Of a stretch of 64,000 nt of DNA, positions 1,248 to 7,814 are shown piece after piece. The position numbers were made by a program, and so were the translations under genes. The stretch is from Candidatus Hydrogenedentota bacterium (GTDB lineage Bacteria > Hydrogenedentota > Hydrogenedentia > Hydrogenedentales > JAJRTN01). The DNA is taken from NCBI GenBank assembly GCA_024278275.1, contig JAJRTN010000009.1:1-64000 (forward strand), in the 5' to 3' direction. The notes under the pieces are model-generated. The model did no database searches, was not told the origin of the DNA, and was given only the letters and a program-made list of their open reading frames with translations. Each line of letters opens with the position of its first letter. Position 1 is the first letter of the stretch.

Positions 1248-3548
1248 TTACCGGCCCATCTCCACCGCGAGGATCCCCCGTGGCGGAACGGTCATAATCC
1301 CCTGCCCCGGAATCTCCTTGCGGACAGGCTCGTCGCCATTGTTATAGTAGTACACCTCATTCACGCTCGCCCGGGTGGCAAGAACCCCATCATAAACGCC
1401 ATCAAGGGGTTCCCCCGCCAGCGGCACGGACCAGGAAACATCCTTTCCGGACGAAACCAGCAGTGTCGCCAGGGGGTGGCGCCATTCGGGCCAGGTACCA
1501 GGAACTTGGATCACTTGCCCGTCGCCCAACGCGCCAACCTCCCAGGACTCCGTGCCGGGGGGCAATGTTTCGGGCCACCAGGACACGGGCCGATCGTCCA
1601 CATTGCGGAGCGGGGCGAGTTCCTCGGGCAGCACCAGCACCCCGCCGCGCCGTATCCAGGCACCCAGGGCATCCAGCACGGGTTCCTCCACCGTATCGCC
1701 CGCCACCACCATCAGGCAGCGAAAGTCTCTCAACAATCCATCAGCCACCATGTTCTCATCGATAAACTCGAAGTCCATGATGTCGCGAATGACCTGTGTC
1801 CGCTCCATGAGTTGGCTGATAACGCTTGGATCCATGACAAGCGAACTGTTGGGTATTAACGCGGCGACCGTCAGCCTGGGGCGATTTCGCACCAGGTACC
1901 GGGCATTCTCCGCAAAAGCGATGGCGGTTGGGCTGGGCCTGTCGGGCGGATCAACCAGCGTCTTAAAATACAGTCCCGATGCTCCCCCCGAAAGGGCATC
2001 GAAAATACGGGCCGCAATACCCTTCGTCGTATTCGCGCCGCCCGGTTCAGTCGTGTAATAGCCGCCGTAGAGCCGCGTTGCGGAAGACACCATACGTGTC
2101 ACCGAAAAGTTCCCCGGTCCATCATCGCTCTGGTTCGTGATACGGATTCCCGCGCCATACCTGGCACACATCCGCGCCTGAGCCGCGAAATCCGCCGCCA
2201 GCTCCGGCTGTCCATGGCCTCCCGTACACAGGTAAATGGGCGTGTCCGGGAAAAGTTCGCGGGCGGTGCGCACCCAGAATTCCGCATAATCCGTCATGGA
2301 ACGGGTGTACCACGCGAACAAGTCCGCGGCGGCGCGGCGGGAGGGCGCCGATGCGGGGATGAAGGGTTCCACCTGTGCCCATTTCGTGAAAGTCGTGTTC
2401 CACGCCGCATTTAACGCCGCCAAGGTCTTGTAGTGTATCCTGACCCAACGCCGCCAGTCTTTGCGGGCGTACTGATCCCCGCACCACCAGCCCAGATGGG
2501 AGTGCCGGCCCTTCATGTCGAAGCCGCCGCCGGCCACGACAATGGACTCGCCCCAATTGCCGGAGATGCCCAAGTTGAGCGCCTCAATCACTCCCGGTTC
2601 ATAGTGTGCCTGAAACAGTTCCAGAAAGCGGCGCACGCCTTCCCGAAGCGCGGGATTCCAGATGCTTTGTATCGGCGTGGCGATGCCATGCTCAAGGCAG
2701 ACCGAAGAGACTCCCCGCTTATCGCGAAACCATTTCGGCGTCGCGATCCTGGGAGCGGTGATCAGGAAAGGCAGCCACTTGAGTTCATGTTTTCTCAGTT
2801 GTTCCACCACTGGATCATACAGGCTGTAGTCCGCTTTCCCTTCCTCCGGTTCAAATTGAGCCCATCCAACGTAGCTCTGAAGGCTGGTGATACCGATATC
2901 CTTTGCCACCTCATAGGCCGAATCGGCAAGCTGGTTGTCCGGGATCGCTTCGTGGATCTGCCACTGCTGGATTATGGTCATCCCCTCTTGCACCTCGACG
3001 GACGGCCGTTCCGCAAAATAGGAAAGCGGGTCTGTCGACGGCTTGAATCCAGCCGGGCTCACCGTGGAGAGCGATACACGCGCCACGGCCAGCGGACCAT
3101 CGGCATGTATGCGAAAATCGTTCCCGCCATTCTGCCGATTCTTGAATTGCGCCGCGCGAAGCGTGAAGGTCTCCGTTCGCCAACGCCTTGTGCCCTGTTG
3201 TGGGTAGGACTCCGGTGCCTGACGGTACGCGCTTGCGCCCTCGCCGGCATCGAAATCCAGCGAAACAACCCCCCGCCGGTCAAAAAAGTCCACCGAGACA
3301 AAGAGCGTTTCCGGCGGTGTCATTTCATCCACGTCGAAATAGAAGTACGTGCTCCCGCCGTCAACATCCGTCTGCCGGCACTGTCGTCCGCCATAGGCCG
3401 TCTCGACGGAACACCCGTCCGGCTGGCTCGAAACCCGCAGTCCCCTACCCCTGTCCGTTGCGCCAAGTTCCACCCACCAGGTGTCCGCGCCCATGTTTCC
3501 CGGGGCCGCGTGGGCAACACAGAAAATCCCAACCATGCACATGAACAC
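1248..3548 (-). CDS. Secreted beta-galactosidase-like glycoside hydrolase (GH42-like, clan GH-A)
   Basis: A 766-residue predicted exported glycosidase. I start it at the GTG at 3548, because AAGGAG (3558-3563) sits 9 nt upstream and the product then opens with a short hydrophobic signal ending CVAHA; the open frame itself extends to 3743. After an N-terminal beta-rich domain comes a TIM-barrel-like region with YVGWAQFEPEEG, the candidate acid/base GISGNWGE, the GH42-type stretch RIHYKTLAALNAAWNT and a possible nucleophile in YTTEPGG. A GH42-type GATase-like trimerisation domain follows (VAALIPNSS through RRGGVLVLPEE), then a C-terminal beta domain. The Asn-Glu of classical GH42 is replaced by Gly-Glu, so the substrate is uncertain. 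It is transcribed divergently from the B12-riboswitch gene. Confidence 0.72.
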   Translation of the reverse strand: MFMCMVGIFCVAHAAPGNMGADTWWVELGATDRGRGLRVSSQPDGCSVETAYGGRQCRQTDVDGGSTYFYFDVDEMTPPETLFVSVDFFDRRGVVSLDFDAGEGASAYRQAPESYPQQGTRRWRTETFTLRAAQFKNRQNGGNDFRIHADGPLAVARVSLSTVSPAGFKPSTDPLSYFAERPSVEVQEGMTIIQQWQIHEAIPDNQLADSAYEVAKDIGITSLQSYVGWAQFEPEEGKADYSLYDPVVEQLRKHELKWLPFLITAPRIATPKWFRDKRGVSSVCLEHGIATPIQSIWNPALREGVRRFLELFQAHYEPGVIEALNLGISGNWGESIVVAGGGFDMKGRHSHLGWWCGDQYARKDWRRWVRIHYKTLAALNAAWNTTFTKWAQVEPFIPASAPSRRAAADLFAWYTRSMTDYAEFWVRTARELFPDTPIYLCTGGHGQPELAADFAAQARMCARYGAGIRITNQSDDGPGNFSVTRMVSSATRLYGGYYTTEPGGANTTKGIAARIFDALSGGASGLYFKTLVDPPDRPSPTAIAFAENARYLVRNRPRLTVAALIPNSSLVMDPSVISQLMERTQVIRDIMDFEFIDENMVADGLLRDFRCLMVVAGDTVEEPVLDALGAWIRRGGVLVLPEELAPLRNVDDRPVSWWPETLPPGTESWEVGALGDGQVIQVPGTWPEWRHPLATLLVSSGKDVSWSVPLAGEPLDGVYDGVLATRASVNEVYYYNNGDEPVRKEIPGQGIMTVPPRGILAVEMGR

Positions 3549-3742
3549 AGCGCCTAACTCCTTCCACTGATTCAGACCGCCTGTTGAACACCTGTACGCT
3601 ATCAAATACTCCGAACCTGTGCAACGGAAACCGGGCACGGGGTCCCCCTTGAACACGCCCACTTTCGCCGCTATACTTCGCGCCCCATGCAGTCCGAATC
3701 CGGCCACTGCCGGGGAAAGGAGGGAGAACACCCAATCCAACA

Positions 3743-3919
3743 ACTACCGCGTGCGCGTGTAAAGGGAAGTACGGTGCAAATCCGTCGCAGACTCGCTGCT
3801 GTAACCGGGGACGACGGTCACATGCCCTCGCTCGGCGAGGGCGGCCACTATCCGCCAGAACGGGGATGGGAAGGCGTGACCCGAGGACGAACCGGAAGCC
3901 AGAAGACCTGCCCGCGCAC
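3743..3919 (+). ncRNA. Cobalamin (B12) riboswitch
   Basis: Conserved aptamer blocks occur in order: AAAGGGAA (3761-3768), GGTGCAAATCCG (3773-3784), GCTGCTGTAACCGGGG (3797-3810), GCCACTATCCGCC near 3844, GGGAAGGCGTGACCCGAGGA near 3868, and the B12 box AGCCAGAAGACCTGCC (3897-3912). P1 is formed by GCGCG-type sequence at both ends. Binding of adenosylcobalamin or a related corrinoid normally lowers downstream expression. The gene downstream is not a known B12 biosynthesis or transport gene but a secreted propeller protein. Confidence 0.93.
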
Positions 3920-3990
3920 ATCCCTGTTTTTCTGTGTCACTTCGCGAGAGAGTTGCACGGGTGGACAACCGTCTTATCCCTCCCGGCGCT

Positions 3991-4032
3991 CCCTCACCAA
4001 AACCCTCCGCATCCTCGCGGAAAGGAAGAGGG
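3991..4032 (+). promoter_or_regulatory. Predicted expression platform: hairpin covering the ribosome site
   Basis: CCCTC (3991-3995) can pair with GAGGG (4028-4032), and CCGC (4007-4010) with GCGG (4017-4020). The resulting hairpin includes the Shine-Dalgarno AAGGAAGAGG ahead of the ATG at 4040. There is no U-tract, so control is more likely translational than by termination. The pairing was found by eye and not folded computationally. Confidence 0.4.
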
Positions 4033-4039
4033 AAAAATC

Positions 4040-6160
4040 ATGCGTTTCATGCACCCCCATATCACGACGGCGCTTCTTGCCGTCCTCGTCTCCTTCGCCC
4101 TGCCGGCCCTGGCCGGTGATTTCGTCACTTTGGACCATTTCCCCGCCCCCGCGCCCGATGCCTACGGCGTGACCGGCACGGCCCTTAACGACGGCACGCT
4201 GCTGCTCTGGAACGGTGACGCCCTGTTTCGGCAGGCCGCGCCGGGTCTCGACCGTTTCGTACAAGTGGCCGAAGGCTATGCCGGTGATCCGGGCTTCGCC
4301 GCCCTGTCGCCCGACGGCGCGCTGGTCATCCTCGGCCAGGGCTACGCGGGCAACCTTTACGCCTTTGACCCCGCCCAACCCGCCGATTTCGCGCCGAGCG
4401 CCATCCGCGCCAATCAGTCCCACTTCGCGGGTGTATTCCTGACGAATACATTGCTCCTGCTGGACGCGGGCACGCCGGATTGGAACAGCGAACTGCTGAT
4501 CATCGACGTTTCGGGCGCCAAGAAGGCCCCCCGGACCGTGGTCACCAAGTCCGCGCGCTTCGCCATCGACAAGCAAAGCGTCGTGGGCAAGCCGGGCTAT
4601 TCGAGCGCCCTCACGGTGGACGCGGTCCACGGCCTGGTTTACGCCATGGGCGGGCAGACCCGGGAACTGCGTTTCTTCGTGAAGCAGGACTTGATCGACG
4701 CCTACCAGGGCAACACCACCCTGGATTGGGAGACCGACGGTACCCTCGTGGGGCAGGCGGGCGATTTCTTCGGCGCGGGCGTCAATGGCATCACCGCCCA
4801 AGGCCAGCTCATCATCTCCGGCTCCAACGGCTGGGGCGAACCGGGCGGCATACAGATCGTGGACCCACGCCTGGATGATCCCACCCAGGCCGGCATCGTG
4901 GAAACGTTGGATCCCACGGGCGTGCAGGGCTACGTAAAGGCCATTTACAACCCGATCACGGGGGCCATACTGGCGGTGGACGCGGGAAGCACCGCCTATG
5001 TCCAGTCGGACTACCTTGTTGCCGCCGCCTCCCTGGCAGATTTCCCGGCCCATCCCGGCGGCAACGGCTTCTCCGTGGTCGCCGATTTTGCCGGAGACGG
5101 GCGCATCGTGGCCTGGGATGGCAATGCGCTCTGGTTGCAGCGCGCTCCCGGCGCGGACCAGTTCGACCAGGTCACCACCAACGTACCCGGCGATCCGGCC
5201 TTCATCCAGGTCGCTCCCAACGGCACGCGCGTGCTCCTTGGCGCGGGCGGTTTTGGCCAGGCCCTCTACCTGGGCGATATCTACGAGTTCAACCTCGCCC
5301 AAAAGGCCCTGCCCGTCGTGGTGAACACGGACAACCATTTCTGGGCCGACTTCGTCGATAACGACACCCTCCTGGTGAACCGCGTCATGCCGGGCAACGC
5401 CGGCAGCGAAGGCGAACTGGTGCTGGTGGATCTCGCGGCCCATCCCATGACCGTGACCCCCGTGCTTCAGCATATTCCCGCCTACTCGGCCGCCTTCGCC
5501 GTGGACCGCGCCAACGGCCTGCTTTACGCGGCCTACTCCGATTTCTCCGCCGGTGGCCCGGTGCGGCGCTTTGATCTGCCGGCCGTCGTGGCCGCCACGG
5601 GCAGCCCCCTGAACTGGACCTCGGGCATGGAGGTGGGCGTATTCGACAACGGCCCCGCCGCCGTGACGGACCGTGGTCTGCTGCTGGTGCCCGGATTCAA
5701 CGCCAAGTTCCAGGTCGTCGATCCCACCCTGGGCGTGATCCTCACCGAGATGAATCCCGCCAATCTCGCCTTCGGCGGCTATACCGTTGCCTACAGCACA
5801 ACCCTGAACCTCATCCTCGCCGTGTCCAACGACTTCGGCGGCAACTTCGGCCTGTGGCTTGTCACGCCCCCCGATCTCGGCGCGGGCGACGGTTGCGACG
5901 TCCTCTGCCAGAACCCGGATGCCGACGCCGATGGTGACGGCCTGCCCTACTGCATGGAGTGCAACCTCGGCACCGACTGGCGTCTCGCCGATACCGACGG
6001 CGACGGTGTGAACGACGGGGATGAGATCGCCAACGGCTCCGATCCCCTCGACCCGGGGGAGGCCTTCCGGCTTCCCACGCTGAGTACCGTGGGTCTGGCA
6101 CTCCTGGCGCTGATGCTGGCTCTGGCCGCCTTCACCGCCCTGCGCCCGCGCGCGGCATAG
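4040..6160 (+). CDS. B12-regulated secreted duplicated beta-propeller protein with IPTL-CTERM anchor
   Basis: 706 residues starting at the ATG at 4040; the open frame upstream runs through the riboswitch and is not coding. A signal peptide ends ALPALAG. The bulk is two homologous halves of about 300 residues: GTLLLWNGDALFRQAAPG with GDPGFAALSPDG in the first matches GRIVAWDGNALWLQRAPG with GDPAFIQVAPNG in the second. Each contains short repeated beta-blade units with lone DG/NG turns. Then follow Asp-rich calcium-binding type repeats (DADADGDGLPYC, DTDGDGVNDGDE) and an IPTL-CTERM tail (LPTLSTVGLALLAL, then RPRAA), recognised by an exosortase-type system. Control by a cobalamin riboswitch plus surface sorting suggests corrinoid capture outside the cell, analogous to BtuG of Bacteroides; that role is inference. 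The CFI-box gene follows after an inverted repeat. Confidence 0.8.
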   Translation: MRFMHPHITTALLAVLVSFALPALAGDFVTLDHFPAPAPDAYGVTGTALNDGTLLLWNGDALFRQAAPGLDRFVQVAEGYAGDPGFAALSPDGALVILGQGYAGNLYAFDPAQPADFAPSAIRANQSHFAGVFLTNTLLLLDAGTPDWNSELLIIDVSGAKKAPRTVVTKSARFAIDKQSVVGKPGYSSALTVDAVHGLVYAMGGQTRELRFFVKQDLIDAYQGNTTLDWETDGTLVGQAGDFFGAGVNGITAQGQLIISGSNGWGEPGGIQIVDPRLDDPTQAGIVETLDPTGVQGYVKAIYNPITGAILAVDAGSTAYVQSDYLVAAASLADFPAHPGGNGFSVVADFAGDGRIVAWDGNALWLQRAPGADQFDQVTTNVPGDPAFIQVAPNGTRVLLGAGGFGQALYLGDIYEFNLAQKALPVVVNTDNHFWADFVDNDTLLVNRVMPGNAGSEGELVLVDLAAHPMTVTPVLQHIPAYSAAFAVDRANGLLYAAYSDFSAGGPVRRFDLPAVVAATGSPLNWTSGMEVGVFDNGPAAVTDRGLLLVPGFNAKFQVVDPTLGVILTEMNPANLAFGGYTVAYSTTLNLILAVSNDFGGNFGLWLVTPPDLGAGDGCDVLCQNPDADADGDGLPYCMECNLGTDWRLADTDGDGVNDGDEIANGSDPLDPGEAFRLPTLSTVGLALLALMLALAAFTALRPRAA

Positions 6161-6177: not shown

Positions 6178-6240
6178 ACACGGACGAACAGGGACCAGCA
6201 CGGACTTGCACGAAGTTCCCGCGTCCCTGTTCGTCCGTGT
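6178..6240. terminator. Long inverted repeat after the propeller gene
   Basis: ACACGGACGAACAGGGAC (6178-6195) and its exact reverse complement (6223-6240) flank a 27-nt loop. It lies 17 nt after the stop codon, so it could terminate the riboswitch transcript, although no T-run follows. The core ACCAGCACGGAC also appears near 25120, so it may be a dispersed repeat rather than a dedicated terminator. Confidence 0.45.
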
Positions 6241-6323
6241 CAGCTTTCACCCCCCGTAAAAGCGTTGATCACTCTGTCGAGGGGCCGTATACTTCGCCCA
6301 CGAAGCAACCGGAGGTAGTGTCG

Positions 6324-7814
6324 ATGACACGAAGTGCGAGAACCTTTCTAATCCTGCTGGCCGTGGCCCTGCCGGCGTTACCCGCCGCGATGGCCCAAGA
6401 CTGCCCGCTGACGTCGGTGGCCATCGTTTCCCCGCGCGACGGCGCCACCCTGTACGTGGATGAAAGCGCTTCGCTTGAAGTGAACTTCGAGGCGGAGCCG
6501 GGGTGCGTGGCGGAAACGGAGAACATCGAGTTTTTCCTCGCCCAGCCGGGCAGTACGAACTTCACGTCCATCGGCGTGGATACGGCCTTTCCCTATCGAA
6601 CAAGCTATACTTTTCTCGCCATGACCTTCGACGAGCCCTGGACGCTCCGGGTGGCGGCCACCCCCACGGACGGCACGACGGAGCCGGTGCAGCTTGAATC
6701 CACCTTTACCTTCGTCGCCGTGGGTAACGCCACGGACTCGAACGGCAACGGCCTGCCCGATGCGCCTTTCGCCGCGCTGAATGGAACCACCGATACGTGG
6801 CGCGCCACGGGACAGTTTGCCGACGCCGCCTTCACCCTGCTGGGCGCGGCCTCGGCCATGTACGGCTATACCATCGAACAGGCGCCCTTTCCCGACGCCA
6901 CCAGCATCACCCTCGCCAGCCCGCACAACCCCGGGCAGACCCTGACGGTGAAAGCCTCGCAATCCCTCCTGGCGGAAGGGGAGCGGGGCGTGCTCATCGT
7001 GGCCATGGCGCCCGACGCCATCAGCCTCATGGGAAGCACCCACGCGGCGCGCGCCGATGGCGTCGCCCCTTCGACCGCCCTCGACCCCGATGCCGAATAC
7101 ATTCATGTGAGTCTCATCATCAGCGACGATAACGGGGTCACCTTCAACGAAGTACCCGACACCCGCCTGGCGGACCATCCCATCGAGCTCACCTTGAGTG
7201 GGCTCGACCTGGTGGGTGGTGAGGACTACACCCTGGCCCGTTATCCCGCTTATATCAAGGACTTCAACAATGTCGTCCGCATCGCCACCGAAACGGGCAC
7301 CTGGAAAAGCGTCACCAACCAGGGTATCGACTACGAAACCGGCACCCTGACCGCGGACCTCACCACCATGGGGCTGTTCGCCCCGTTCCAACAGGCCGAC
7401 GTGGGAACCGTCACCGATACCACCGGAACCACCACGTTCTGGATGATTCTTTCGCCCATCCTTTTGGCCCTCGGCATCCTCCAGGCAGCCGACGGTGGCG
7501 GTCCCTGCTTCATCGCCACCGCCGCCTATGGCACGCCCATGGCCGGCGACATCAACACCCTGCGTCTTTTCCGGGACAAGGCCCTGCTGACCTCCGCCGC
7601 GGGCAGTCTTGCCGTGGACACCTATTACCGCCTGAGTCCGCCCATCGCGGACGGCGTGGCCGCCTCACCCCTGTTGGCCGCCATCGTGCGCGTGGCCCTG
7701 GTGCCCGTGGTGTGGATCATTCGCCTAACCATGTCCGTGCCCCCCGGCATGTGGCCCCTGCTGGTCCTGGTCGCGGCCCTGCTCGCCCTTCGGCGTCGGC
7801 GCAAGACCGCATAG
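6324..7814 (+). CDS. Exported surface protein with CFI-box C-terminal sorting region
   Basis: 496 residues from the ATG at 6324, with GGAGG at 6311-6315. The signal peptide ends PAAMA before QDCPLTSVAIV. An N-terminal Ig-like region (VSPRDGATLYVDESASLEV) precedes a central segment resembling choice-of-anchor U modules (ETGTWKSVTNQGIDYETGTL). The C-terminal 110 residues start with a hydrophobic helix and CFIATAAYGTPMAGD, continue with a conserved helical segment, and end in a second transmembrane helix plus RRRRKTA. This layout is the CFI-box CTERM region seen in surface proteins of Myxococcota and other diderm lineages; the Cys may be the processing or lipidation site. No enzymatic motif is visible. 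It may form a transcription unit with the preceding propeller gene or have its own promoter. Confidence 0.72.
   Translation: MTRSARTFLILLAVALPALPAAMAQDCPLTSVAIVSPRDGATLYVDESASLEVNFEAEPGCVAETENIEFFLAQPGSTNFTSIGVDTAFPYRTSYTFLAMTFDEPWTLRVAATPTDGTTEPVQLESTFTFVAVGNATDSNGNGLPDAPFAALNGTTDTWRATGQFADAAFTLLGAASAMYGYTIEQAPFPDATSITLASPHNPGQTLTVKASQSLLAEGERGVLIVAMAPDAISLMGSTHAARADGVAPSTALDPDAEYIHVSLIISDDNGVTFNEVPDTRLADHPIELTLSGLDLVGGEDYTLARYPAYIKDFNNVVRIATETGTWKSVTNQGIDYETGTLTADLTTMGLFAPFQQADVGTVTDTTGTTTFWMILSPILLALGILQAADGGGPCFIATAAYGTPMAGDINTLRLFRDKALLTSAAGSLAVDTYYRLSPPIADGVAASPLLAAIVRVALVPVVWIIRLTMSVPPGMWPLLVLVAALLALRRRRKTA

Follow-up and report, generated by a model that had tools for sequence, protein, structure and literature searches.

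What does a cobalamin riboswitch control when the gene behind it carries no annotation of a usual B12 target? The question is raised by a locus in the window (the whole 64,000-nt stretch of Candidatus Hydrogenedentota DNA analyzed here), where such a riboswitch precedes the gene of a secreted protein built from two homologous units. An earlier note, made from the sequence alone, had read this protein as a candidate BtuG-like corrinoid-capture protein, without claiming homology to BtuG. The features of the locus are listed below (window coordinates, strand, description, and basis).

3649–3677 (+): sigma-70-like promoter, TTGAAC-17-TATACT (pattern scan, 9/12 matches)
3740–3929 (+): cobalamin riboswitch aptamer, complete (RF00174)
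4040–6160 (+): gene of the secreted two-propeller protein, 706 aa (ORF and translation)
4040–4114 (+): signal peptide MRFMHPHITTALLAVLVSFALPALA, without a lipobox cysteine (read from the sequence)
4115–5014 (+): propeller unit 1 (AlphaFold2, Foldseek, phylum-wide family membership)
5015–5887 (+): propeller unit 2, homologous to unit 1 (BLASTP, AlphaFold2, Foldseek)
5990–6055 (+): bacterial TSP3 calcium-type repeat (PF18884)
6074–6145 (+): IPTL-CTERM-like C-terminal sorting or anchor segment (sub-threshold TIGR04174)
6178–6240 (+): long intergenic hairpin 3′ of the propeller gene, possible transcript end (fold z-score −6.7)
6324–7814 (+): secreted CFI-box-CTERM protein, possible partner (NF041770, E 4e-25)

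Riboswitch and Gene Architecture

The riboswitch matches RF00174 on the plus strand at 3740–3929 over the complete model (positions 1–189) with 81.2 bits (E 2e-18), well above the gathering score of 31.5 bits, and 110 nt separate it from the start of the propeller gene. The promoter-like site at 3649–3677 lies 62 nt 5′ of the riboswitch and is weak evidence taken singly. No terminator was found on the plus strand before position 4040, where the fold z-score is only −1.1, ruling out a terminator-type expression platform, and no clear sequestering hairpin was found. Given the absence of a terminator, the switching mechanism is not settled. A GH42 beta-galactosidase-like protein is encoded divergently from the riboswitch (1248–3743, minus strand).

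The propeller gene begins with an ATG at 4040, just downstream of a purine-rich GGAAAGGAAGAGGG, and runs through 706 codons to a stop at 6160. The signal peptide of its product ends in ALPALA, with the mature protein starting at GDF (ALPALA|GDF), and is followed by two units which are homologous to each other (32% identity over 302 columns, E 4e-24 by BLASTP). No family in Pfam, NCBIfam, or the PDB covers these units, and the gene has no annotation as a usual B12 target, so this identity was rejected. The earlier note had claimed a clear riboswitch, a gene outside the usual B12 targets, a signal peptide, and two homologous propeller-like halves, all of which held. Of the Asp-rich calcium-type repeats also claimed, a single TSP3 match was found (PF18884, aa 651–672, E 3e-6). 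The claimed IPTL-CTERM sorting tail is plausible and remains unproven, as it scored below the cut-offs of both TIGR04174 (15.9 against 20.5 bits) and the midcut-by-XrtH model (19.2 against 45 bits); similar tails are present in most homologues.

The next gene (6324–7814) may encode a partner. In G034, G035, and G002, the propeller gene is followed by the gene of a homologue of this CFI-box-CTERM protein, and in G024 and G026, the propeller itself carries the same C-terminal domain as a fusion. A shared transcript was rejected as a safe assumption on account of the strong hairpin and a promoter-like site (6265–6293, promoter scan) between the two genes, and the downstream protein may therefore be a partner without a common transcript.

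Predicted Fold of the Two Units

AlphaFold2, for which the input was limited to the window sequences and one related locus, modeled both units as all-beta propellers (pLDDT 80.2 and 80.6 for units 1 and 2, respectively; pTM 0.84 for each), and the strand order of both models predicts six blades. Foldseek returned propellers with a probability of 1.00 for unit 1 (WD40 and Pizza6) and unit 2 (G-beta and Drp35). The best TM-scores of unit 2 were to Drp35, a six-bladed lactonase-type propeller (0.69–0.71). The structure prediction suggested by the earlier note thus yielded the propeller fold; the comparison with BtuG2 that it also suggested gave no BtuG2 among the 50 Foldseek hits shown, and the models therefore support a propeller fold and not a corrinoid site. 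The units of the family are acidic, with net charges from −11 to −42 (mean −20 per unit), and conservation over the 32 units is complete only at two glycines and one tryptophan.

A Propeller Family Linked to Cobalamin Riboswitches

A scan of genome contigs with the single protein gave only one relative, and a phylum-wide search was used instead, restricted to 68 genomes of the same phylum, all of them draft assemblies. Relatives of the window propeller were identified in 30 of these genomes, with propellers 30–50% identical across families (alignment A1 includes G030 and L034 as a single entry, these being one and the same contig). Most relatives contain a single propeller, in some cases followed by an Ig domain; the tandem duplication seen in the window protein is exceptional, with G038 as another case.

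Of the 32 relative loci, 31 have a cobalamin riboswitch a short distance upstream of the propeller gene. In 30 of the loci tested, the riboswitch is found 172–343 nt upstream on the same strand, and in one more it is cut by the contig end with its 3′ half still recognized. The one locus without a riboswitch (G064) is the most distant relative (E 4e-11). Cobalamin riboswitches occur in 61 of the 68 genomes, mostly one or two each and ranging from zero to three; with so few in genomes of several megabases, a chance pairing over 31 of 32 loci is ruled out. This pairing is what the earlier note had proposed to look for in other genomes, and no homologue with an unrelated role, which it had named as a refutation, turned up in the phylum scan. 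We consider the window propeller likely to represent a new propeller family, the function of which would be corrinoid capture at the cell surface, with both corrinoid binding and surface location being inferred.

A BtuH-like Partner

The genome that contains the window (G000) contains a single further cobalamin riboswitch (C149:4063-4260), which precedes a gene for a secreted BtuH-like protein (L003:4381-6552). This protein matches BtuH2 (7biz_A, E 9e-8) and the BtuH domain of BtuG1 (8blw_B, E 9e-7), and a profile built with 15 relatives matched these two entries alone in the PDB (8blw_B, E 1.6e-17; 7biz_A, E 3e-14). The partner gene is, hence, homologous to the B12-binding domain of BtuH2 and BtuG1. 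Asn399 of BtuH2 is among the published B12 contacts (PMC8941943), and its column is invariant in the BtuH-like alignment, in which not all contacts could be aligned; Trp577 is not conserved, with other residues aligning at this position. The BtuH2 numbering used here relies on an offset of 100, deduced from the positions of Tyr510, Trp511, and Trp577 in the chain as printed.

Genes encoding BtuH-like proteins are present in 44 of the 68 genomes. In 11 genomes, the gene directly follows the propeller gene behind the same riboswitch, and in 29, including that of the window, it lies behind a riboswitch of its own. In BtuG1 of B. theta, the propeller and the BtuH domain belong to a single polypeptide (PMC10404256), and the propeller-BtuH gene pair therefore corresponds to the same combination split over two genes. 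This operon partner was not foreseen by the earlier note, whose BtuG-like corrinoid-capture reading is supported, with corrinoid binding itself remaining an inference.

B12 Physiology and Import

CbiC is required in both de novo corrin pathways. It was found in none of the 68 phylum genomes, while the activation domain of the B12-dependent methionine synthase (MetH) was found in 61, including the genome of the window; these organisms therefore appear to use B12 without making it. No corrin-synthesis gene was seen behind the phylum riboswitches inspected, and in five genomes, the genes behind riboswitches form btuF-btuD-btuC operons.

The import route is less clear. The TonB plug domain is absent from G000 and from 51 of the 68 genomes, and most genomes therefore have no recognizable BtuB. 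The FecCD domain (BtuC) was found in 65 of the 68 genomes, some with weak matches only, and was not found in G000, the assembly of which is 96% complete. With neither FecCD/BtuC nor a TonB plug in this genome, its downstream import path cannot be named; an alternative carrier and a gap in the assembly are both possible.

Comparison with Known Corrinoid-Binding Systems

The window protein resembles BtuG (BtuG2, 3DSM; BtuG1, 8BLW) in being a secreted beta-propeller under cobalamin riboswitch control with a genetic association to the BtuH domain, and differs from it in other respects. There is no detectable sequence homology, with no BtuG entry recovered by phmmer with the window protein or by searching all PDB sequences with the 32-sequence profile, and DUF5074, which we take to be the Pfam family of BtuG, had no match in G000 or in any of the 32 units. 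The restraint of the earlier note on this point was right. Further, BtuG2 has seven blades (PMC10404256), whereas the window units have six by model; the propeller in the window protein is duplicated in tandem, unlike in BtuG; BtuG is anchored via a lipobox, in contrast to the IPTL-like C-terminal tail seen here; and BtuG is linked to BtuB, whereas no BtuB partner was found in G000. The window protein should thus not be classed as a BtuG and, at most, works like one, with corrinoid binding being inferred.

BtuH2 (PDB 7BIZ) binds cobamides at the surface, and a homologue of it shares the operon with the propeller gene in 11 genomes and is controlled by the other riboswitch in G000; BtuH is not a propeller, and the window protein is not itself a BtuH. 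The B12-binding DUF4465/BtuJ proteins have a beta-jellyroll rather than a propeller, and DUF4465 had no match in the window protein. As DUF4465/BtuJ shows that B12 scavenging has drawn on an additional fold in different phyla (PMC13398666), recruitment of yet another unrelated family is plausible. Among the Foldseek hits shown, Drp35/SMP-30-type six-bladed propellers have the solved fold nearest to unit 2 in TM-score; they are intracellular lactonase-type enzymes with about 14% identity to this unit.

Surface capture of B12 by propellers and BtuH has so far been known from gut Bacteroidetes, nearly always beside BtuB, and the 2018 study that discovered BtuG noted no homologues of it outside Bacteroidetes (PMC6143338). 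Here, in a phylum without corrin synthesis and mostly without a TonB receptor, an unrelated propeller family is likewise under cobalamin riboswitch control and paired with a BtuH domain. If the proposed function is true, the propeller solution to corrinoid capture evolved more than once, raising the testable question of how B12 passes the outer membrane without BtuB. The riboswitch linkage also provides function leads for two unannotated families: these propellers and the conserved pseudopilin described below.

Proposed Function and Alternative Explanations

We propose that the window protein is, in all likelihood, a cell-surface corrinoid-scavenging protein. The riboswitch, the secretion signal, the duplicated propeller fold (by model), and the phylum-wide riboswitch linkage are directly established, as are the operon shared with a BtuH homologue in other genomes of the phylum, the absence of the corrin-synthesis marker, and the presence of MetH; corrinoid binding, surface location, and hand-over are inferred. 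In this view, low intracellular adenosylcobalamin would permit expression via the riboswitch (a direction inferred from the riboswitch class), and the protein would be exported and then anchored to the cell surface through its C-terminal tail. One or both acidic six-bladed propellers would bind B12-type corrinoids, which may be handed on toward uptake together with the separately switched BtuH-like protein, the imported corrinoid being destined for cobalamin-dependent enzymes such as MetH. Support comes from the riboswitch linkage, the BtuH neighbor, the five riboswitch-linked btuF-btuD-btuC operons, and the acidic units, noting that BtuG2 binds corrinoid on its negative face (PMC10404256). 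Against it stands that neither BtuG nor another corrinoid binder of solved structure was matched by sequence, that BtuG2 was missing from the 50 Foldseek hits shown, that the distant relative in G064 has no riboswitch, and that G000 lacks both FecCD/BtuC and the TonB plug.

An alternative, which we consider unlikely, is a secreted corrinoid-processing enzyme, where a six-bladed lactonase-like propeller would trim or remodel cobamides ahead of their uptake. In favor of this, unit 2 reaches its highest TM-scores with lactonase-type Drp35 (0.69–0.71), and riboswitch linkage is compatible with any corrinoid function. However, invariant columns are limited to two glycines and one tryptophan, a catalytic metal site is not evident, and the riboswitch-linked partners are binders and transporters rather than enzymes.

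Similarly improbable is a B12-sparing or structural surface protein (e.g., an adhesin or coat component) made at B12 scarcity without any corrinoid contact. Cobalamin riboswitches can also control B12-independent substitutes, and adhesins often contain propellers, Ig domains, TSP3 repeats, and C-terminal sorting tails. This explanation is opposed by the operon that joins the propeller gene to a BtuH homologue in 11 genomes. In addition, all target families identified behind riboswitches in the phylum are consistent with acquisition, although the pseudopilin is an unclear case. Finally, a true but highly diverged BtuG orthologue acting with a hidden BtuB would share the fold class, the regulation, and the BtuH association of BtuG1, and is very unlikely given the lack of a PDB profile match to BtuG and of DUF5074, six blades (by model) instead of seven, no lipobox, and no TonB plug in G000.

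Other Members of the Cobalamin Regulon

A second secreted family, containing a beta-propeller repeat (PF06739), lies behind riboswitches at 13 or more loci, all in one genome family (f3) that is without the window propeller family. The riboswitch-linked propeller-plus-Ig family in f3 (L103, L105, L108, L109, L112, L116, L117, L120, L121, L123, L126, L128, and L130) appears as if substituting for the window family.

The best conserved member of the regulon is a pseudopilin with a DUF1559 match, mostly 56–72% identical over about 270 aa across families and located directly 3′ of a riboswitch in about ten genomes; the reason for its control by B12 is unexplained. In G000, it follows the BtuH-like gene on contig C149 (L003:6549-7373), with an ATGA overlap junction at 6549, and the same order was noted in several other BtuH loci read. 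In eight of the 11 genomes with the propeller-BtuH pair, riboswitch, propeller, BtuH-like gene, and pseudopilin form one gene string. No description of this regulon or of a B12-controlled pseudopilin was found in the open-licence literature searched. Based on the eight-genome gene string, together with the secretins encoded by G000 and its lack of a TonB plug, a bolder and less likely reading is possible: a TonB-independent outer-membrane corrinoid route, where surface capture by the propeller and BtuH-like proteins would be followed by inward transfer through a pilus- or secretin-type machine that includes the cobalamin-controlled pseudopilin.

Relatives of the pseudopilin were seen at L136, L143-L149, and L151-L156, and G000 contains 41 pseudopilin paralogues that match the regulon pseudopilin over its N-terminal part only. 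At two loci, L111 (G053:C373) and L115 (G052:C11), a tandem pair of cobalamin riboswitches precedes a pseudopilin-type gene.
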